DNA from: a virus | Length of the DNA: 46,737 nucleotides | IMG/VR virus record: IMGVR_UViG_3300033153_007131 | Coordinates: 1 to 46,737 of that record | Direction: 5' to 3' (one strand) | In this document: piece after piece, positions 2,892 to 43,216 of the stretch | How positions within the stretch are numbered: the first letter of the stretch is position 1 | How the letters are laid out: every line of letters begins with the position of its first letter | Made by a program: the position numbers and the translations under genes | The notes under the pieces: generated by a model | Database searches by the model: none | The model's input: only the letters and a program-made list of their open reading frames with translations | Told to the model about the DNA's origin: nothing

Positions 2892-2954
2892 ATGTTGATA
2901 AATTGCAAATCTTGCGTTAATGTTAATATAACTTATTCAGGAATTTTAAAATGA
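2892..2954 (+). CDS. Possible 20-residue leader peptide before portal
   Basis: A short frame, MLINCKSCVNVNITYSGILK, begins 6 bases after a clear AGGAG and ends with a TGA that overlaps the portal ATG (ATGA). It contains one CxxC pair. The strong ribosome site and stop/start overlap suggest real translation that couples terminase to portal synthesis. The peptide is so short that chance is a serious alternative. Confidence 0.3.
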   Translation: MLINCKSCVNVNITYSGILK

Positions 2955-4240
2955 GTAAATATGATCCTTCAAAAGAATACGGTCGCTCCGGTTTAAATCA
3001 TTACGATGGTTATGTTGAAGAAGAGCTACTGCGAGAACTTCCCGAATCAAAGAAGCTAAAAATTTATCGCGAAATGGAAAACAATCCTATCATTTCAGGG
3101 CTGCTTGCCGCATATAGCGGTGTAATAAGTCAAGTTAAATGGCGGACTGATATAGGTAAAGGAGGAAGCGAAGAAGACGCTGAGTTTGTAGAATCATGTA
3201 GACACGATATGTCAAGCTCATGGCAGGAAACTATATCTTCAATTATGCCAATGCTTAGGGACGGTTTTTACTATAGTGAAGTAATTTATAAAAAACGCAT
3301 GGGACCACTACAAAAGGACACCGGAAAACGTAGCCGTTATAATGATGGTAAGTGGGGTTGGCGCAAGTTTGCTGGCCGCGCTTCAGAAACAATTAGCCCC
3401 GGTGGATGGGTAATAGATGATAACGGCGGCATTAAGGGAGTTATTCAGAAAGCACCCCCAGACTATATTGATGTTTTTATTCCGATTGAAAAGTCATTAT
3501 TATTTAGGACAACGTCAGCTAAGAATAACCCAGAGGGCCGCGCACTAATTAGAGGCTCATACGAGCCGTGGTATTATTTCCGCAATATATCAAAGATGGA
3601 GGGAATAGGGGTTGAGAGAGATCTTTGCGGCGTGCCCGTTTTCCGTGTTCCTGCCAATGTGTTAAAAGCTGGACAAGGCGACCTGGGCACTGGACCGGAT
3701 GCACTAGTGTATAAGAAAATTTATGATACGTTTAAAAAAATGTTAACTAGCTTTAAACGTGATGAGCAGGACGGGGTAATACTAAGTAGCGAGGCTGACG
3801 ATAAGGGAAATTTTTATTATGATTTTAAGCTACTTGCTTCGGCCGGGACTAGACAGTTCGATACGGACAAGATAGTAATGCGATGGGGAAAGCTTATAGC
3901 ATTGTCTGTACTTGCTGATGTACTTATGATGGGACTAGAGAACATTGGCAGCATGGCCATGGCAAAAGAAAAGGGTTCATGGCTCCTTATGATGATTACT
4001 GGCATTCTAGACGGTATAAAAGATATACTTAATCGTCACGCTATACCGCGTCTGCTTGAACTTAACGGAATGAGTCTTGAAAACCCACCAACAATAGAGC
4101 ACGGAGGATGTAAGAACGTTGATCCTCGAATGTTCGGCGATGTTATGAGTAAATTACAAGTTGCTGGCTTTATTGAACCAGACCCGAAGTTAAATGCTTA
4201 TATTAGAAATATACTTGGATTACCTGCGGAAGAAGTATGA
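2951..4240 (+). CDS. Portal protein, DUF935 / Mu gp29-like
   Basis: A 429-residue protein matching the DUF935 portal family. Features are an N-terminal region with NNPIISGLLAAYSGVISQVKW, a central segment IEKSLLFRTTSAKNNPEGRA followed by a PWYYF stretch, and a C-terminal half with long helices. The portal forms the dodecameric ring at the capsid vertex through which DNA passes. An AGGA ribosome site lies 8 bases upstream of the ATG. The stop overlaps the start of the Mu-F-like gene by four bases (ATGA), as is usual for this portal/minor-head pair. Confidence 0.92.
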   Translation: MSKYDPSKEYGRSGLNHYDGYVEEELLRELPESKKLKIYREMENNPIISGLLAAYSGVISQVKWRTDIGKGGSEEDAEFVESCRHDMSSSWQETISSIMPMLRDGFYYSEVIYKKRMGPLQKDTGKRSRYNDGKWGWRKFAGRASETISPGGWVIDDNGGIKGVIQKAPPDYIDVFIPIEKSLLFRTTSAKNNPEGRALIRGSYEPWYYFRNISKMEGIGVERDLCGVPVFRVPANVLKAGQGDLGTGPDALVYKKIYDTFKKMLTSFKRDEQDGVILSSEADDKGNFYYDFKLLASAGTRQFDTDKIVMRWGKLIALSVLADVLMMGLENIGSMAMAKEKGSWLLMMITGILDGIKDILNRHAIPRLLELNGMSLENPPTIEHGGCKNVDPRMFGDVMSKLQVAGFIEPDPKLNAYIRNILGLPAEEV

Positions 4241-5175
4241 TTGTTTATCCAGAGCCAATAATAACAAAGTCAAGCAAGGTGGCAATAGTGAAATTGACCC
4301 ATGCACAAAAAGTAGCGCAGTCGCGGCGTATAGCAGCACAAATTACTCGCATGATGCAAATATCATTCAAAGAAGGTATCCGCATTTTTCGCGATACCAT
4401 AACCATGAAAGAGGTATCCAAATCGTTGAAACGAGGCGACTTGAGGGCCGTTAATAAGCTTATGAATTGGGAGCGGTGGGATCGGTCCCTTGCTGGATTA
4501 AGGGATGATGCACTTGAAGCAATGAGATTATCGTCCAAGGCAGCAGAAAAAGCACTACCAAAAGTGTTGCGTCCCAGGTTCAGATTTGACCTGACAAATC
4601 CGAGAATATATCAATGGATCGAAAGGGAAACTGGTAAGCGCATTACGAGAATAGGTATAGATTCCATGAAAGCAGTTCGTGCTCTAGCGCGCAGGGCCGT
4701 TAAGGCTATTAAAGAACGTGGCATACCGCCTGCCAGGGCCGCTAAACAACTTATTGAATACGTTGGCCCTCACGTACGTCAGGCACAAGCGTTAATAAAT
4801 TTTGAAAATCGCTTAATAGCTCGAGGATTTGATCCCGCTGACATTGCTAGGCAGGTTGATGCATATAGGAAAAAATTAATAATCTATCGCGGAAAGATGA
4901 TAGCCAAAACTGAGGCATTCAATGCCGTGAATGCAGGTCAACATGAAGCCTGGAACCAGATGGCCGACCAGAAACTAATCGACCGCGAGAAATCAAAAAA
5001 ACGATGGAGCGCTGGCCCCGGAGCGTGTGAGCATTGTTCCGCAATGGACGGGGTAGCTGTGCCACTCAATGACCCATGGATAACCCCGGACGGTAAGGCC
5101 GTTATGTTACCCGCTGAAATACATCCTAATTGTAGCTGCACAATGTCATTGGAGCCAAAATATATTGGAGTGTAA
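4237..5175 (+). CDS. Phage Mu F-like minor head protein
   Basis: A 312-residue minor capsid protein of the Mu gpF / SPP1 gp7 family (PF04233 type). Diagnostic features are the MIAKTEAFNAVNAGQHEAW block (about 221-239) and the C-terminal putative metal site: ACEHC (C264, C267) followed by MDG, then HPNCSC (H296, C299, C301). These proteins bind the portal and enter the prohead in a few copies. The gene overlaps the portal stop by four bases. A shadow ORF on the minus strand and another at 4194-4454 are not genes. Confidence 0.9.
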   Translation: MIVYPEPIITKSSKVAIVKLTHAQKVAQSRRIAAQITRMMQISFKEGIRIFRDTITMKEVSKSLKRGDLRAVNKLMNWERWDRSLAGLRDDALEAMRLSSKAAEKALPKVLRPRFRFDLTNPRIYQWIERETGKRITRIGIDSMKAVRALARRAVKAIKERGIPPARAAKQLIEYVGPHVRQAQALINFENRLIARGFDPADIARQVDAYRKKLIIYRGKMIAKTEAFNAVNAGQHEAWNQMADQKLIDREKSKKRWSAGPGACEHCSAMDGVAVPLNDPWITPDGKAVMLPAEIHPNCSCTMSLEPKYIGV

Positions 5176-5177
5176 TA

Positions 5178-7757
5178 ATGCCAACAAATGATTATTTACA
5201 AGGATTTTTAAAATACTGTAAAAGCTTTCTCGATAAAGGAACAATTGAAACACTTACCAGCAAGGCCAGAGGGTATGCTGGCGGTAAGAGTAGAGTCCGA
5301 AGTGAGATTCCAACCGTAATAGAAAAGTTAACAGTTGGGCGCATGACACCAAGTACTTTACGTGAACAGTCTGACGAGGAAATAAAACAGGCATGGTACC
5401 GCCTTAATCAACTTTGGGGCGGTATGCGAAAACGCAAAGAACCAGAAAATGAAATGTTCCTAAATGCTGGAATATTTGTACTTGAAGAGTTAACGCGCCG
5501 TAAATTCAAGGTTGACGATAAGGGCGACTTTTATAAATCAATACATGAATTTATACGACGCGCAAAGCGCCACAGGATACGCGCTGCATATTCAACTATT
5601 CCAGAAAAAGAAGGCCTGATTGAGGACTTCGTGTCCGTTGGCGGCAGTATGGCCATGCAAGACAAGGAACCCGAAGATATAGATATAATTATTCGAGCCG
5701 AAAAAACTGAGGATGAAAAATATTACAAGATTAAGTGTGACTTGGTTGATATTGCAATTAGAAACGCACTCGACCGTGATAAATCAAATGACTTACATTA
5801 TATTGCATCTGCCCAGGGTTCATTCACTGACCATAACCCGATATTCCAATTAGCACTTGTTAGGTATCCACAATTTGAAACACATATAATGAAGAAAGAT
5901 GTCCAAGTTCCTGCGTTTGGTCCAAAGAATGCTCCTATATTATTCGTTGGATCATCGCCCGGAAGAATAGAAGCAAATGAAGGGCGACCATTTTGGGGAC
6001 AAATAAAAACAACGATTGAGAACGAATATGCAAAGCCACTCGGTATTCCAAAAGAGGATATAGCAAAGGTTAATGCCGTCCCTCAATATCTTGAGGACAG
6101 TGCCGGTAGAACTAGAGAACCGACAGTCGAGGAACTTGCCAAATGGCGAGAGTGGCTATATGAGCAGATAGATACTCTTAGCCCTACAGCAGTGGTTGCG
6201 CTTGGAGACAAGGCGGCCGAAGCCTTAGGTAAAAGGGCAGACTTTAAACTTATTCATCCCGCTGCATTCAAAAGATATGGAAAGCCTAAAGATTTCGATA
6301 GTGAAATTGAAAAAATTAAAAATCATCTAAAACTTCAAAGAACCGATCACTTATCTAAGTTTGATTATCTGGAAGGATTTTATGCTAAAACGGCAAATGG
6401 TATAAATCACCTTATAACATTAAAAACATTAATAAAACCAAAAGATGAATATTATAATGAAATTGAAAAGATACAAAAGTCCGAATCAATTTATGAAAAC
6501 GATTTATTGATATTAGAAAAAAATGGATATGAAATTAAAAAAGAGGAAGGATTAACTAGTCACCCGAAATTAGGCGAAGAGGGCGGGACAAGGAGTGAAA
6601 TAGCAGCACAGCACTGGTTAAAAAATTGGGCCATAAAGACATTGCCTCAAAAGTCAAATATTGGCCGATTCGCAGCACAGCACCATTGGCGCGGACTCGA
6701 TGAAAATCAAACAAAATGGAGTGATAAAAAACTATGGGAAGATAAAAAACATAGTGTTCATACTGATATTAGAATGGAAGCTGATAAAAATCATTTATGG
6801 GGGATCACCGTTTTTATGGGGGCAGATAGATTAGAAAAGTATAACGGTCATGCGGTTGCAGAACTTCCTTATGACGATGCTCTTCAAATATCATTTAAAT
6901 TATCACAACCATTACCATGGATTGAAGTCGGTGAAAAAAAACCGATGATAATTCCGCCCGGCGAGGTGGCCGCCTCAAAATATAAATGGTCTGTTTTTCA
7001 TGGTGAAGATTTCGGTGATTATGAAATTACTTACGCGAAGGAGCATTTTATAGAATTATTCTTTAGTGGAAAACACATTAAAGGCCGTTATATTCTACAG
7101 TTTGCGCCGGTCGGTGAGAGAAGTATATGGATATTAAAACGCGCTAAGCAAGACGACCAAGAGCCTTTCCTTATGAGTAATAAACTTGAAAACGAGGTCA
7201 GGGACCAGCAACAAAAAAACCGCCGCTGGTTATGGTATGCGAAAGATGGCAAGCCAATTATTATTGATCTTAAAAAAGTTAAACCTGAAGATTTTAAAGA
7301 AGAAGATAATAAAAGATTAAAGAAAGATGATAATGATACCGAAAAAATTATAAAGCAACTTAATGCAGGGTTTTCAAAAGAAGAAAATGCACGCATATAT
7401 AAGATTAACGAACCGAAGCAGATTATATATAGCGTTGTGTTACCTGTTAATTCTCCAATGTCAGACGCGGCCCATGATGGCATTGACTATGCTAACCCAG
7501 AAGAAGTTGAGAAAGCATGCCATAAATACATGGAGGACTACCGAAAAGTTGGTGAGCTGCATAAAAAAGAAATTAATGCTGTGCCGGTTGAAAACTGGAT
7601 TGAAAAGAATGGATTTATTATGAATGGCCAGAAAATAAATAAAGGCGACTGGTGCGCAGGGCTAAAAATACGCGACAGTGAAGCATGGAAGAAATGCGCT
7701 AGCGGTGAGTATAACGCGGTGAGCGTTGAAGGATATAGTAAAGTTGAAAAAATTTAG
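5178..7757 (+). CDS. XkdF-type prohead protease fused to NTase-, UDG- and LigD-PE-like domains
   Basis: An 859-residue multidomain protein at the position normally held by a head-maturation protease. Order: residues 1-130 helical, unassigned. Residues 135-230 resemble a nucleotidyltransferase core, with GGS at 155-157 and DID at 167-169, the family's GG/S-xn-DxD signature. Residues 245-385 resemble a family-4-type uracil-DNA glycosylase (VGSSPG at 258-263, GRPFWG at 269-274, AVVALGDKAAEAL, HPAAF at 360-364). The usual catalytic acidic residue in motif 1 is Ser here, and I see no Fe-S cysteines. Residues 495-660 resemble the LigD 3'-phosphoesterase (HxDxR at H528, D530, R532; PPGEVA; HIKGRY, then WILKR). 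Residues 736-859 match XkdF (YSVVLPV, H795, S849 in VSVEG). In-frame ATG after the F-like gene stop. Activities are inferred from motifs only. Confidence 0.8.
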   Translation: MPTNDYLQGFLKYCKSFLDKGTIETLTSKARGYAGGKSRVRSEIPTVIEKLTVGRMTPSTLREQSDEEIKQAWYRLNQLWGGMRKRKEPENEMFLNAGIFVLEELTRRKFKVDDKGDFYKSIHEFIRRAKRHRIRAAYSTIPEKEGLIEDFVSVGGSMAMQDKEPEDIDIIIRAEKTEDEKYYKIKCDLVDIAIRNALDRDKSNDLHYIASAQGSFTDHNPIFQLALVRYPQFETHIMKKDVQVPAFGPKNAPILFVGSSPGRIEANEGRPFWGQIKTTIENEYAKPLGIPKEDIAKVNAVPQYLEDSAGRTREPTVEELAKWREWLYEQIDTLSPTAVVALGDKAAEALGKRADFKLIHPAAFKRYGKPKDFDSEIEKIKNHLKLQRTDHLSKFDYLEGFYAKTANGINHLITLKTLIKPKDEYYNEIEKIQKSESIYENDLLILEKNGYEIKKEEGLTSHPKLGEEGGTRSEIAAQHWLKNWAIKTLPQKSNIGRFAAQHHWRGLDENQTKWSDKKLWEDKKHSVHTDIRMEADKNHLWGITVFMGADRLEKYNGHAVAELPYDDALQISFKLSQPLPWIEVGEKKPMIIPPGEVAASKYKWSVFHGEDFGDYEITYAKEHFIELFFSGKHIKGRYILQFAPVGERSIWILKRAKQDDQEPFLMSNKLENEVRDQQQKNRRWLWYAKDGKPIIIDLKKVKPEDFKEEDNKRLKKDDNDTEKIIKQLNAGFSKEENARIYKINEPKQIIYSVVLPVNSPMSDAAHDGIDYANPEEVEKACHKYMEDYRKVGELHKKEINAVPVENWIEKNGFIMNGQKINKGDWCAGLKIRDSEAWKKCASGEYNAVSVEGYSKVEKI

Positions 7758-7816: not shown

Positions 7817-8755
7817 GTGTCAACAAAAAACAGATTACATGAAATTGTTATTCAATCAATCGACCTTGTACCGCGGGGCGGTAATAAGAAAAAAATATTT
7901 TTAAAGAAATCGGGGGAAACTATGGGCGAATTTACAGTCGAGAGCTTACAAGAAATTGAAGAGATTATAAAGGAAGAACTTGAAAATGAGGAAAAGATAA
8001 TTAAAGAAGCCAAACTTGAGAAAATATCTGATAAAGCAAAAAATGCCATTAAGTCTATACTTCGGTTGGCCGCTAATTATAAAGAAGAAATCGGTGACGA
8101 TGTTATGAAGAAGCTTGCCTCACTTGCTGGTTATGGTTACCCGGCACCTGAGAAAAAACAGGATGATAACGATAAGGATAAGGATAAAGAAAAAAATCCA
8201 TTCACAAAACCATATCCTGAAGTAAAAAAAGCAGCTCGTGATTTTGTCCCAACTGACAAACGTGAAGAGTTCGACAAGATAATGAAGAGCTTTGAAGTTA
8301 AAGACACACCGGTTGTTGACGATCCCCAAGTGTTGGCACTCATGAAAAAAGATGAAGATAGCCAAAAGCGTATTCGGAAACTTGAGCAAGATACTGAGAT
8401 AAGAAAAGTTGAAGTTCGTATCGAAAAAGAACTCAAGAACCTTAATACTGTCCCTGAAAAATTTGCACCATTGTTACATACAATTGAAAAGGCACTTAAT
8501 GACGACCAGAAAAAAGAATTTAATGAAATATTGAAAGCTGCCGACAAACAAGCTGAAAAGGGAACTGCACTATTAAAAGAATTAGGATCAGACCAAGGCG
8601 ACCCGGAAGCTGGCAGTGCTTATGAGAAGATACAGAAAATTGCTAAAGAAAAGGTAAAGGTCGACCCAGGGCTTACCATTGAAAAGGCTGAAATGTTAGC
8701 CATGGAGGAAAACACAGACCTCTATGACCAATATGAAAAAGAACAACGTAATTAA
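7817..8755 (+). CDS. Scaffold-like acidic/coiled-coil head protein
   Basis: A 312-residue, highly charged, helix-rich protein between the XkdF-type fusion and the decoration and capsid genes, the usual scaffold position. The N terminus (IQSIDLVPRGGNKKKIFLKK) resembles the short LVDxxANRxxFLxxK element common near phage protease/scaffold boundaries. That supports the GTG start at 7817 over the internal ATG at 7922, although the ATG has a good GGGGG ribosome site and may also be used to give a shorter form. Residues 35-75 and 170-235 are predicted coiled coil from heptad-like Glu/Lys/Leu patterns, and 115-125 is a DNDKDKDKEK linker. No enzymatic motif is visible. Scaffold is an inference from position and composition. 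Confidence 0.65.
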   Translation: MSTKNRLHEIVIQSIDLVPRGGNKKKIFLKKSGETMGEFTVESLQEIEEIIKEELENEEKIIKEAKLEKISDKAKNAIKSILRLAANYKEEIGDDVMKKLASLAGYGYPAPEKKQDDNDKDKDKEKNPFTKPYPEVKKAARDFVPTDKREEFDKIMKSFEVKDTPVVDDPQVLALMKKDEDSQKRIRKLEQDTEIRKVEVRIEKELKNLNTVPEKFAPLLHTIEKALNDDQKKEFNEILKAADKQAEKGTALLKELGSDQGDPEAGSAYEKIQKIAKEKVKVDPGLTIEKAEMLAMEENTDLYDQYEKEQRN

Positions 8756-8785: not shown

Positions 8786-9520
8786 ATGAGCGCATATGAA
8801 ATTCCACTATTGCCACTAGGTACACTGAAAGCAGATGCCGACTACCGGCTAAAACAGTTCCGTTTTGTAAAAGGAACCGCTACCGGGGTTGCTCTTGCGG
8901 GGGCAGGTGAAGCTGCAGTAGGCGTATTGAAAAACTTACCTAATATCGGTGAACAAGCAAGCGTTGAAACATACGGCGTTACCCAGATTATATATGGCGA
9001 TACCGTGACTCGCGGGCAAAATGTTATGTGTGATGCAAATGCCGCAGCCGTACCGCATACAGGGACTAACAATTGCAATGGTATGGCGCTTGAAAGTGGC
9101 GTTGCCGGAGATCTGGGAACCATACTTTTAGCATCCAGAAATTCAAGTGGTAAAACCGTTTCGTATAGTACGCTTTGCATTCCGGTTGACTTTACTAAAA
9201 TTGCTAACGGCGATATTGTAACCGAATTCTTGCCTGGTTTTGCTGGTACAATTGAAAAGGTTGATGTTATAATGACCGACCCAGTGACAACCGCAGCAAA
9301 GGCCGCTGACCTTAATCTTGAAATTGATGCTGTAAACGTTACCGGCGGAGTCGTTGCGTTGACAAGTGCAGCATGTACACCATTGGGCAAGGTTGTTGAA
9401 GGAGCCGCAATAACTGCTAATAATACTTTTACTAACGCTCAGAAGATAAGTGTCGAAGCCGCTAACACCGTTGACTTTGTTGAGGGTAAAGGCGTTATTG
9501 TAATCGTACTATCATCATAA
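8786..9520 (+). CDS. Capsid decoration protein (DUF2190-like N domain plus beta domain)
   Basis: A 244-residue Ala/Gly/Val-rich protein directly before the major capsid gene. The N-terminal half (about 1-120) has the look of capsid cement proteins: PNIGEQASVETYGVTQIIYG, then GDTVTRGQNVMCDANAAAV. The C-terminal half (about 125-244) is a second beta-rich domain (IEKVDVIM, LNLEIDAVNVTGGVVALTS, TFTNAQKISVEAANTVDFVE) of a type often attached to head or tail surface proteins. It probably coats the capsid and projects outward. GGAG ribosome site upstream (aaggagttgaa). No catalytic motif. Confidence 0.7.
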   Translation: MSAYEIPLLPLGTLKADADYRLKQFRFVKGTATGVALAGAGEAAVGVLKNLPNIGEQASVETYGVTQIIYGDTVTRGQNVMCDANAAAVPHTGTNNCNGMALESGVAGDLGTILLASRNSSGKTVSYSTLCIPVDFTKIANGDIVTEFLPGFAGTIEKVDVIMTDPVTTAAKAADLNLEIDAVNVTGGVVALTSAACTPLGKVVEGAAITANNTFTNAQKISVEAANTVDFVEGKGVIVIVLSS

Positions 9521-9533
9521 ATGGAGGTAATCA

Positions 9534-10487
9534 ATGTCTAACCTAAGATCTAGCAGAGTACATATTAATCGACCGCTTACTACAATGTCGGTTGCATATA
9601 TCCAAGACGAAAAATATTTTATTTCCGATAAAGTATTTCCAACACTGCCAGTAAACAATGAGTCCGATACTTATTTTCAATACAACAAGGGTGACTTCTT
9701 CCGTAACGTTGCAAAAGAAAGAGCACACGGAACCGAGTCAGCAGGCGGTGGATTCGATCTTGACAATGAGGGAACCTATAACTGTAAGCGAATTTCTTGG
9801 CATGATGATATTGACGAGAAGACACGTGAGAGTGCAGATGCACCGTTAAACATTGAGCGCGATTCAACCGAATATGTTACTCAAGTTCTAATGATAAAGC
9901 ATGAACGCGACTGGTTTGATAAATATTATAAAATCAATATTTGGGGACGTGACCCCGTTCCTGGCACCAAATGGGATGCCGACAATTCCGATCCGGTTGG
10001 AGATATTGACGATGAAAAAGAATATATCTTTTCTCAAACCGCTTTAATGCCAAACACATTAATACTCAGTCCAGATGTTGCAAAGGTACTTCGTAATCAC
10101 CCTGATATTATCGACCGTATTAAACACGTGCAAAAGGGGTTTGTAACGGAGGACATGCTTGCCGGAATTTTTGGCGTAACAAACGTTTTCGTTGCTCGTG
10201 CAATTGAGAACACAGCAAAAAAAGGTCAGACAGATGTCTTTTCTTATATGGCAGCTACAAAATCGGCATTGCTTGTTTATGCTAATCCTAGACCAAGTTT
10301 AAAAAAGCCTTCAGGTGGTTATACTTTCAGATGGAAAAGATTTTCAGGGGCAGGAAGATTTGGTAATTACATGAAAAAATTCTGGATAGAGAAAATTGAG
10401 TCAGATAGAATTGAAGGCAACATGCATTACGACCAAAAGTTAATTGCCCCAGATTGTGGATCATTTTTTAAAACAGTTTTAACATAA
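9534..10487 (+). CDS. Major capsid protein
   Basis: A 317-residue protein of the size and position expected for an HK97-fold coat protein, after scaffold and decoration genes and before the neck genes. Features typical of this coat family are an N-terminal RPLTTMSVAYIQDEKYFISD segment leading to VFPTLPV, a central NTLILSPDVAKVLRNHPDII stretch with FGVTNVFVARAI, and a C-terminal beta region ending near PDCGSFFKTV. I see no HK97-type crosslink evidence. A ribosome site (GGAGG) is present. Identity rests on context and overall pattern rather than a unique motif. Confidence 0.85.
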   Translation: MSNLRSSRVHINRPLTTMSVAYIQDEKYFISDKVFPTLPVNNESDTYFQYNKGDFFRNVAKERAHGTESAGGGFDLDNEGTYNCKRISWHDDIDEKTRESADAPLNIERDSTEYVTQVLMIKHERDWFDKYYKINIWGRDPVPGTKWDADNSDPVGDIDDEKEYIFSQTALMPNTLILSPDVAKVLRNHPDIIDRIKHVQKGFVTEDMLAGIFGVTNVFVARAIENTAKKGQTDVFSYMAATKSALLVYANPRPSLKKPSGGYTFRWKRFSGAGRFGNYMKKFWIEKIESDRIEGNMHYDQKLIAPDCGSFFKTVLT

Positions 10488-40852: not shown

Positions 40853-43216
40853 GTGAAATATTGCGATATTAGAAACTATCACGATTTTTTAAAAATACGA
40901 AATGAACCAATCTATAATTACATTGATTATGGCAAGGTTGCTTTACCAACATTTAGCAATGATATCAATGAAAAAAAAATAGCTTATGACGGTTCAAATA
41001 TATTGTTTGATTATCAAAAATATATTGTTTCAGTTGCGATGGTTCGGCAGAGATTTGCGGTTTTTGCTGATGCTGGCCTCGGGAAAACTTTTATATTTCT
41101 TGAGTGGTTAAATCATATTGATAAATTAAATCAGCAATCTAAATTTTACGAAGGTATGCGTTTTATAATATGTGCGCCTAATCTTATCGTTCCGCAAATA
41201 ATAAAAGAATCTGAAAAGATAGATCTTGATTATAAATTACATGATGCAAGATATAATTTTGATTCTTTTTTACAATCAAAAGAGCCTGGGTGTGCCGTTA
41301 TAAACCATCATAAGTTTTTACGTGAAAGAGATTTATCATCTATAGATGCCTTTGTTTTAGACGAATCAAGTATACTAAAATCTGATATAGGTACAATAGG
41401 CAACAATTTAATAAACTCGGTTAAATCCATTAATTGGATAATGGCGTGTTCTGCCACTCCTGCACCGAATGATAGAACTGAGTATGCAAGTCACGCCGTA
41501 TTTTTAAAATATTATAAAACAAGGGAAGAATTCTTATCTAACTTTTTTATAAATGATGGATCTAAAAAGTTCATGCGATTAAAGCCCCTGGCCTATGATG
41601 AATTTTATAAAAATATGGCTTTCTGGTCGATCTACGTTAAATCACCTGTGAATTTTGGATTTGAAAAGAAAATTGAACTACCACCAATTAATTTTAATGT
41701 TGAAAAAATAGATTATACAGACCAACAGTACAACGCAATAAAATCACTTGATAACGGAGGTGATTTATTATTATTTGATGATATGTCTGGAATGCACAAA
41801 AGAAAACGAATAGCTCAAATTTCACGAGGGTTTGATTATAAAACTAAAAAAAGATATGAGAGCAATAAGATAAAAAGAATAGTAGATATTGTAATACTTG
41901 ATCATTTAAATGATCAAGTGCTGGTCTGGGTTGAGTTTGATCTTGAAGGCGAATTACTTGCTGAAAAAATAGAAGGTGCAGGTATTCTTGACGGTAAAAT
42001 GGATAATGAAAAAAGGGAATCAATAATTCTTGATTTTATTAACGGTGATCTTCGTGTTTTAATTACAAAACCGTCTCTAGTTGGATTTGGCTTAAATTTT
42101 CAGTTTTGTACTAATGTTGTTTTTTCTGGGATAACCGATAGTTATGAATCGTTTTACCAGGCAATAAAGCGTTGTCACAGGTTCGGGATTAAGAAAAAAT
42201 TAAATTGTTATATTCCAATAACGGAAGGGGAAAATGTTATGTATGGCAATATTATGAATAAGGCTAAAAAAATAGAACTAGATCAACATTTGCAAGAGGC
42301 AAGATTTAAAAATCAATATGACCAATTTGTTTATGAAAATGAAAATATTACACTAACTCACGAATTATTTGAAACTAAAAACTGTAAAGTTTTTCATGAT
42401 GATTGCATTTTGGGAATGAAAGAACTTAATAAAGAAAGCATTGATTTATCAATTTTCAGTCCACCGTTCAGATCACTATATGTATATACAAGCTCTAATC
42501 ACGACCTGGCAAATTGTAAAAATCAGGAATTTGAATTTGAAACAGGTTTTAAGTTTTTTTGTGAAGAATTGTTCAGGGTAATGAAAACGGGGCGAATGAC
42601 CTGCTGTCATTTACAGCAATTAACCTACACGCTTGCAAGTTTTGGGAGACTGGGATTAAGAGATTTTAGGGGAAAAATAATCGAATTATTTGAAAAAGCA
42701 GGTTTTTGGTATTATGGTGAATTTGTTATATCGAAAAACCCTCAGGCGGTAGCAATTAGGACAAACGCCCATAGTTTGATGTTTGCTACATTGAAGCGCG
42801 ATTCGAGCAGATTGGCACCATGTTTCAACGACATGGTTTTGATATTCAAAAAACCAGGCAATCCAGAAGTTCCAGTATTACCGCTTGAAAATGGAGAATA
42901 TAATCATGAAGAATGGATACGTGACGCGTGTGGAATTTGGACAGACATAAGAGAATCAGATGTTTTACAGGCTAGAAATAAATTAGGAAATGAAGAAAAG
43001 CACTTATGTGCATTACAAACAGAGGTTATCAGAAGGCTTATGAAACTATATTCTAATCCGGGAGAATTGGTTTTAGACCCCTTTTCTGGTATTGGGTCAA
43101 GTGGTTATATTGCAACTGAGTTAAAAAGAAACTATATAGGATATGAAGTAAATCAAAATTATTTCAATATAACTAAAAAATATATTACAGCAAATCATCA
43201 AGAAAGTTTAATTTAA
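40853..43216 (+). CDS. SNF2-type helicase fused to beta-class DNA methyltransferase
   Basis: A 787-residue fusion beginning with GTG behind AAGGAGG. Helicase part: Walker A DAGLGKT at 73-79, DExx-type LDESS at about 169-173, SAT at 200-202, and motif VI QAIKRCHRFG from 436, with FINGDLRVLITKPSLVGFGL before it. These fit the SNF2 translocase family. Methyltransferase part, from about 515: SPPF at 536-539 (motif IV) and, much later, DPFSGIGSSG at 742-751 (motif I). This is the circularly permuted beta-class order, probably N4-cytosine or N6-adenine. The two domains may self-protect DNA while translocating. No nuclease domain is visible, unlike typical type I or ISP restriction enzymes. Confidence 0.88.
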   Translation: MKYCDIRNYHDFLKIRNEPIYNYIDYGKVALPTFSNDINEKKIAYDGSNILFDYQKYIVSVAMVRQRFAVFADAGLGKTFIFLEWLNHIDKLNQQSKFYEGMRFIICAPNLIVPQIIKESEKIDLDYKLHDARYNFDSFLQSKEPGCAVINHHKFLRERDLSSIDAFVLDESSILKSDIGTIGNNLINSVKSINWIMACSATPAPNDRTEYASHAVFLKYYKTREEFLSNFFINDGSKKFMRLKPLAYDEFYKNMAFWSIYVKSPVNFGFEKKIELPPINFNVEKIDYTDQQYNAIKSLDNGGDLLLFDDMSGMHKRKRIAQISRGFDYKTKKRYESNKIKRIVDIVILDHLNDQVLVWVEFDLEGELLAEKIEGAGILDGKMDNEKRESIILDFINGDLRVLITKPSLVGFGLNFQFCTNVVFSGITDSYESFYQAIKRCHRFGIKKKLNCYIPITEGENVMYGNIMNKAKKIELDQHLQEARFKNQYDQFVYENENITLTHELFETKNCKVFHDDCILGMKELNKESIDLSIFSPPFRSLYVYTSSNHDLANCKNQEFEFETGFKFFCEELFRVMKTGRMTCCHLQQLTYTLASFGRLGLRDFRGKIIELFEKAGFWYYGEFVISKNPQAVAIRTNAHSLMFATLKRDSSRLAPCFNDMVLIFKKPGNPEVPVLPLENGEYNHEEWIRDACGIWTDIRESDVLQARNKLGNEEKHLCALQTEVIRRLMKLYSNPGELVLDPFSGIGSSGYIATELKRNYIGYEVNQNYFNITKKYITANHQESLI

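Follow-up and report, generated by a model that had tools for sequence, protein, structure and literature searches.

A multi-domain viral protein ending in a prohead-protease-like domain and carrying DNA-repair-like modules among the head genes

Results

The P0001 gene and its domains

The window analysed here is the whole IMG/VR virus record IMGVR_UViG_3300033153_007131 (46,737 bases), and our subject within it is P0001, a gene in the head-gene block that encodes a multi-domain (polyvalent) protein of 859 amino acids terminated by an XkdF prohead-protease-like domain. The ATG of P0001 begins 3 nt past the stop of a MuF-like gene, and the frame at 5178-7757 (+) contains no internal stop and constitutes a single gene of 859 codons. 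The initial annotation, made from the sequence alone, had described precisely such an uninterrupted frame, and it placed the motifs correctly to within one residue (VGGS 154, DIDI 167, GSSPG 258, GRPFWG 269, HPAAF 360, HTDIR 528, His795 and Ser849). An assembly join or a frameshift splitting the gene is ruled out: the frame is single throughout and GC content at third codon positions is 0.25-0.39 across the domains. The gene and its domains, including nucleotidyltransferase (NTase), uracil-DNA glycosylase (UDG) and phosphoesterase (PE) modules, are as follows.

5178..7757, +, P0001, XkdF-terminated multi-domain (polyvalent) protein, 859 amino acids; continuous frame, ATG to stop
5178..5570, +, N-terminal helical domain common with XkdF polyproteins, residues 1-131; profile without P0001, E = 1.3e-6
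5571..5906, +, minimal Pol-beta-superfamily NTase-like domain, residues 132-243, GGS 155-157, DID 167-169; family profile, E = 4.5e-7
5913..6293, +, UDG-superfamily domain, residues 246-372, motif A GSSPG, Cys none; Pfam PF03167, E = 3.6e-17
6657..7193, +, LigD-phosphoesterase-like domain, residues 494-672, H503-x-R505-G506 and H528-x-D530-x-R532; PE1 profile, E = 2e-10
7395..7745, +, XkdF/Peptidase_S78_2 prohead-protease-like domain, residues 740-856, His795 and Ser849; Pfam PF14550, E = 6.3e-22

The C-terminal domain scores 78.4 bits against PF14550 (gathering cut-off 24), and the putative catalytic residues His795 and Ser849 fall in invariant columns of an alignment of 12 diverse XkdF proteins; both the domain and the two residues had been anticipated in the initial annotation. 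An ordinary stand-alone prohead protease is ruled out by 735 amino acids of extra sequence, most of it supported by homology.

The UDG-like block was likewise borne out. PF03167 matches it at 63.2 bits (cut-off 24.3), and family-4 UDGs in the PDB match it at E = 8e-8. The nearest subfamilies in NCBIfam and PDB searches are type-4 UDG and UdgX, with which P0001 shares the GRPF.G and HP motifs; it falls far under the NCBIfam cut-offs for type-4 UDG and UdgX (56.6/250, 54.8/190 and 49.8/125 bits). On these matches we classify the domain as a divergent member of the UDG superfamily.

A family of polyproteins with the same core

No close relative of P0001 appeared in single-protein scans of viral contigs or in an initial genome scan; tblastn against phage records returned single-domain matches only, and a corrected DNA pattern search for the NTase-UDG combination gave four loci, none of the four related to P0001. 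The family became apparent from XkdF loci, through two longer proteins, L127 (1522 amino acids) and L134 (1347 amino acids). Both combine P0001-type helical and NTase-like domains with a LigD-PE-like domain and a terminal XkdF, and both contain an ATP-dependent DNA ligase (E = 2e-18 and 3e-15, respectively). Searches with the domains common to both led to AJP62006 of the archaeal virus ANMV-1, to copies in a Myxococcales metagenome-assembled genome (MAG) and to 27 viral loci, a number that counts loci and not independent lineages, several being near-identical and a few cut by contig ends. The family so defined consists of polyproteins of 870-2200 amino acids in IMG/VR viruses, one Myxococcales MAG and ANMV-1.

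The modules, as located with local profiles, most often run [Dam]n - helical domain - NTase - PE1 - PE2 - ATP-dependent DNA ligase - XkdF, where PE1 and PE2 are sister domains. XkdF is C-terminal in 16 of the 27 loci, and the rest mostly read NTase - ligase - PE1 - PE2 without XkdF, like ANMV-1. Pfam searches of 23 members found the ligase in 20, XkdF in 12 and a D12 methylase (Dam) in eight, and one instance each of a polynucleotide-kinase 3'-phosphatase, a 2H phosphoesterase and a metallo-beta-lactamase fold. The KxNG motif of the ligase is retained in most members. XkdF apart, nearly every clearly assigned module of the family is, as judged by homology, a nucleic-acid enzyme. The layout nearest to that of P0001 belongs to three near-identical loci (L166-L168) in which local profiles detect no ligase and the core is otherwise present.

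Membership of P0001 was assessed with profiles built from 13-20 non-redundant members, P0001 left out, and searched among 7,403 open reading frames (ORFs). They retrieve P0001 with PE1 (E = 2e-10), NTase (E = 4.5e-7) and helical domain (E = 1.3e-6), in an order matching that of the relatives, and no unrelated ORF falls below E = 1e-3. Earlier leave-one-out profiles from three relatives had given 1.6e-3, 4.9e-3 and 2.6e-8. Domains were analysed singly because the UDG, an insertion in P0001 relative to its relatives, makes global alignments with them misplace the PE domain. P0001 follows the family order of helical domain, NTase, PE and C-terminal XkdF, and we assign it, on profile homology, as a compact member that has a UDG insert and no ligase.

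Each of the core domains supports this placement. The helical domain matches residues 8-126 of another locus, L080 (E = 7.5e-10, in a small sequence set), and an AlphaFold2 model of residues 1-240 is all-helical over 1-131, with fair block confidence (predicted local distance difference test, pLDDT, 55-87) there and pLDDT below 50 in the NTase part. The NTase signature proposed in the initial annotation was sub-threshold in Pfam when the block was searched alone (Polbeta, E = 0.0013) and then gained the family homology given above. Its GGS...DID aligns with GS/GG...D[IV]D of the relatives, and GG/GS and DxD are kept in most relatives inspected. Searched against PDB sequences, the NTase family profile gave only PolX of African swine fever virus, at a non-significant E of about 1. 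Direct blastp comparisons link the P0001 NTase to L169 (E = 5e-6), helical domain plus NTase to L172 (E = 5.6e-7) and the PE domain to L179 and L180 (E about 1e-5).

The block with HxDxR, for which a LigD phosphoesterase had been suggested, followed a similar course: no Pfam family matched it, LigD_N (PF13298) giving nothing up to E = 10, and the homology emerged with the polyprotein PE1 profile, to which hhalign aligns it at E = 3.4e-8 and probability 95. The HxRG and HxDxR residues of PE1 are identical in all 20 members compared, and P0001 retains them (H503, R505, G506, H528, D530 and R532). Family PE2 aligns with true LigD PE at E = 1e-6 and probability 91. In a single-sequence PDB search LigD-type phosphoesterases took the first two places among 177,635 sequences (E = 0.39 and 0.87), which we treat as a lead, short of proof; the PE1 profile found nothing significant among PDB sequences. 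We accordingly speak of residues 494-672 as LigD-PE-like.

XkdF fusions and the history of P0001

A search of IMG/VR with an XkdF-core DNA motif yielded 119 XkdF stretches and 85 non-redundant XkdF proteins. In 30 of the 85 the N-terminus is extended by 150 amino acids or more, and XkdF sits at the extreme C-terminus in all 30; in another 31 the N-terminus is short and the extension C-terminal, as expected for protease-scaffold proteins. Other XkdF proteins carry in their extensions, each in a separate protein, Nudix with histidine phosphatase, D12 methylase, inorganic pyrophosphatase or 2H phosphoesterase. Within this broad set of C-terminal-XkdF polyvalent proteins we note L031:7234-9681 (Nudix and histidine phosphatase), L135:8609-10045 (inorganic pyrophosphatase) and L077:947-2158 (2H phosphoesterase). 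Stand-alone XkdF domains of Pseudomonas phage PAK_P1 (L012:2489-2959) and of PaP1-type phages bear the label 'DNA methyltransferase' (phrog_1530), which probably originated with fusions of D12 methylase and XkdF, L113 for example.

In a FastTree phylogeny of XkdF domains, P0001 falls outside the group of all 12 repair-family XkdFs, beside XkdFs without repair modules. Because of this position, weakly supported at 0.47-0.74, the tree hints that the cassette was fused to an XkdF protease more than once and that the P0001 fusion may be independent.

Genomic setting

The window reads terminase, portal, MuF-like gene, P0001, a 312-amino-acid gene, scaffold and major head protein, with the following coordinates.

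1607-2890, terminase gene, head-gene block upstream of portal
2951..4240, +, portal protein gene; phrog_113, E = 8.8e-53
4237..5175, +, MuF-like head morphogenesis gene, directly upstream of P0001; phrog_3517, E = 5.7e-34
7817..8755, +, 312-amino-acid gene separating P0001 from the scaffold gene; phrog_13547 (unknown function), E = 1e-9
8786..9520, +, head scaffolding protein gene; phrog_673, E = 5.3e-18
9534..10487, +, major head protein gene; phrog_1005, E = 8.7e-82

The gene had been placed between MuF-like and scaffold-like genes. The upstream neighbour is indeed MuF-like, but downstream the adjoining gene is that of phrog_13547, and the scaffold comes second. Tail sheath, tape-measure and baseplate genes lie downstream of the head genes, and the window virus is therefore contractile-tailed. 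Elsewhere in the window, a radical SAM protein gene (81-1139, +) immediately precedes the terminase genes, and 40853-43216 (+) encodes a 787-amino-acid DEAD/Helicase_C helicase fused with an N6/N4 DNA methylase, which resembles the methylase-helicase dyad of polyvalent proteins.

The relatives checked occupy the same position. In the four neighbourhoods checked (L145, L143, L152 and ANMV-1) the polyprotein comes after the portal, with a MuF-like gene intervening in L152, and in L145 and L143 scaffold-like and major head genes lie downstream, as in the window. For ANMV-1 the product AJP62005 (L137:1913-3193) is labelled 'MutT-like phage hydrolase', yet it matches portal family phrog_146 at E = 2e-30; the ANMV-1 ligase gene therefore directly follows a portal gene. 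After that ligase gene, L137:5868-9368 encodes AJP62007, a Cys-rich hypothetical protein of 1166 amino acids whose C-terminus is MuF-like by eye (CDYCRDMW...LPPYHEHCRC).

The family is rare in cellular genomes, with one occurrence among 195 from the phylum to which the Myxococcales MAG belongs. That MAG holds two copies of more than 2,000 amino acids with several D12 methylase domains. The copies, L152 and L153, are about 92% identical in PE1 and lie about 93 kb apart in opposite orientation on a contig of 105.8 kb, each adjoining MuF-like or portal-like frames. In another member, L149:2957-9376, an extra segment between helical domain and NTase (residues about 900-1190) is ADP-ribosyltransferase-like by eye (YRGIKG ... 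SFTTSKTKAFDF) and has no Pfam match.

Discussion

P0001 shares homologous domains and their order with its relatives, and it lies among head genes. We hypothesize, with a probability of roughly one half, that it is a virion-destined polyvalent protein whose repair modules, delivered by XkdF, act on phage DNA. In this scheme the XkdF domain would replace a stand-alone prohead protease and would anchor P0001 in the procapsid through scaffold or portal; at head maturation it would cut P0001 itself and other head proteins, and the freed N-terminal part, with its helical, NTase, UDG-like and PE-like domains, would stay inside with the genome. Either in the packaged genome or once the DNA enters a new cell, the modules would then recognise and process ends, bases and gaps of damaged or broken phage DNA. 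Most relatives have an ATP-dependent DNA ligase in the same chain, and this would seal the product. The window virus would depend on a host ligase, since the window encodes no recognisable ATP-dependent one. We infer packaging, self-cleavage, ejection and every catalytic activity of P0001 in this way, and module content suggests the repair role. Longer relatives that have this core and a ligase besides, at the same genomic position, strengthen the proposal of the initial annotation that a repair cassette is joined to a head protease.

Several observations pull the other way. No ATP-dependent DNA ligase is recognisable in P0001 or in the rest of the window. PE1, the type that P0001 matches best, aligns weakly with LigD PE (E = 5e-4, probability 33), with Q.H...H.D.R in register, and by eye the viral PE family shows no counterpart of the histidine of the LigD EDHP motif; an AlphaFold2 model of the PE region was unusable (pLDDT 42), and a fold search gave no significant match. 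The UDG was found in no relative, the Pfam families of the 23 members included. Unlike type-4 UDG and UdgX, the P0001 domain contains no Cys at all, and so lacks the Fe-S cysteine set, and its motif A reads GSSPG where family-4 enzymes in the PDB have GE.PG. Ser thus replaces the family-4 Glu, the absence of the usual acid having already been remarked in the initial annotation. With such changes the domain may bind bases instead of excising them.

The closest conceptual precedent is that of polyvalent proteins, single chains with multiple disparate enzymatic domains in phages and conjugative elements (Iyer et al. 2017, PMC5512222), and P0001, a single chain whose enzyme-like domains differ widely in function and whose gene lies close to virion genes, falls within that definition. 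Both have several enzymatic domains in one chain encoded near late virion genes, minimal Pol-beta NTases (Pol-beta-like in P0001) and a C-terminal peptidase (PMC5512222), and related accessory modules (2H, InPase) occur here in other XkdF fusions. Assemblin-like peptidases are invariably C-terminal in polyvalent proteins and thought active in virion assembly, and DdrB of phage P1 is processed prior to packaging (PMC5512222). In phage SPN3US, whose head contains ejection proteins in large amount, head proteins are substrates of the prohead protease (PMC7411985, PMC10052503). What differs from the published polyvalent proteins (PMC5512222) is the core, which in the XkdF family described here is a DNA end-repair set. 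The main text of PMC5512222 contains no LigD-PE or UDG module and has 'ligase' only as RNA ligases. To call P0001 a new virion-borne system, as was suggested at the outset, was overstated, protease-ended multi-enzyme polyvalent proteins encoded at virion loci having been published (PMC5512222); the LigD-type end-repair, ligase and UDG modules are nevertheless new relative to that paper.

Among individual proteins, ANMV-1 AJP62006, annotated 'ATP-dependent DNA ligase' (KP703175), is similar in holding NTase, ligase, PE1 and PE2 in 866 amino acids directly after the portal, and the P0001 PE matches it at E = 2e-6 (small sequence set). Unlike P0001, it has a ligase, lacks XkdF and UDG, and follows the order NTase-ligase-PE; the main text of the ANMV-1 paper does not mention the ligase. 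Bacterial DNA ligase D of non-homologous end joining (NHEJ) also combines polymerase-type, PE and ATP-dependent ligase activities in one polypeptide, those of the viral family being predicted from sequence. The LigD polymerase is an archaeo-eukaryotic primase (AEP)-type enzyme, not Pol-beta. LigD has no protease and P0001 has no ligase. Stand-alone XkdF prohead proteases (PBSX XkdF, psiM2 ORF12, phage P26059A) have the same protease domain and head-gene position, without repair modules and often as protease plus scaffold instead. In the open-licence literature we found no description of a head protease fused with a DNA ligase or UDG.

A different function for the same injected modules is conceivable, although we consider it unlikely: they would serve mainly against host immunity, acting on nucleotide signals, RNA targets or restriction breaks, and not in genome repair. 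Polyvalent proteins are mostly read in this manner (PMC5512222), and Dam methylases, 2H phosphoesterase, inorganic pyrophosphatase and Nudix with histidine phosphatase, found in relatives or other XkdF fusions, would suit such an effector; the NTase could have proteins as its substrates, a modifying role that Iyer et al. propose for the Pol-beta NTases of their set (PMC5512222). However, the conserved core of NTase, PE and DNA ligase is a DNA end-joining set, and UDG acts on DNA bases. The two views also overlap, as mending restriction cuts would count as both.

It is less probable still that P0001 works only inside the cell, repairing nicks and gaps where phage DNA is packaged into assembling heads, and that it does not stay in the mature virion. 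Nicks and gaps in DNA can stall packaging, the gene lies among packaging and head genes near the portal, and some XkdF-less relatives, ANMV-1 among them, hold the same position. A cytosolic enzyme would, however, need no fusion to a prohead protease, which predicts a place in the procapsid interior. That the UDG, NTase and PE folds are mere core or scaffold mass of the protease, as the lost UDG acid, the EDHP histidine missing by eye and the many XkdF extensions without any recognised enzyme might suggest, is very improbable given the H, R, H, D and R of PE1 invariant in 20/20 relatives, the GG/GS and DxD kept in P0001 and most relatives inspected, the KxNG ligase of most members and the existence of separate scaffold genes.

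Returning to virion delivery, we extend it tentatively, as a proposal that could well fail, to an unrecognised and widespread class of viruses. Such viruses would package a complete DNA end-repair set (Pol-beta-type NTase, LigD-like PEs and ATP-dependent ligase, with optional UDG, Dam or 3'-phosphatase) as one polyprotein together with its own prohead protease, which would free the enzymes in the capsid for ejection. The particles of large eukaryotic DNA viruses such as African swine fever virus contain repair enzymes; for tailed viruses of prokaryotes, we found no description of a similar kit in the open-licence literature. The fixed domain order, the link to a head protease and the single-gene layout make the packaging question directly testable, and the family would also supply compact enzymes, among them LigD-like phosphoesterases, ligases and proteases. 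If packaged, the modules would explain how long-lived virions of soil, sediment and groundwater mend nicks, gaps and uracils before replication or, alternatively, how restriction cuts are undone at entry. If the proposal is true, the end-repair polyprotein would be a virion-borne machine of the NHEJ or base excision repair (BER) kind in tailed viruses.
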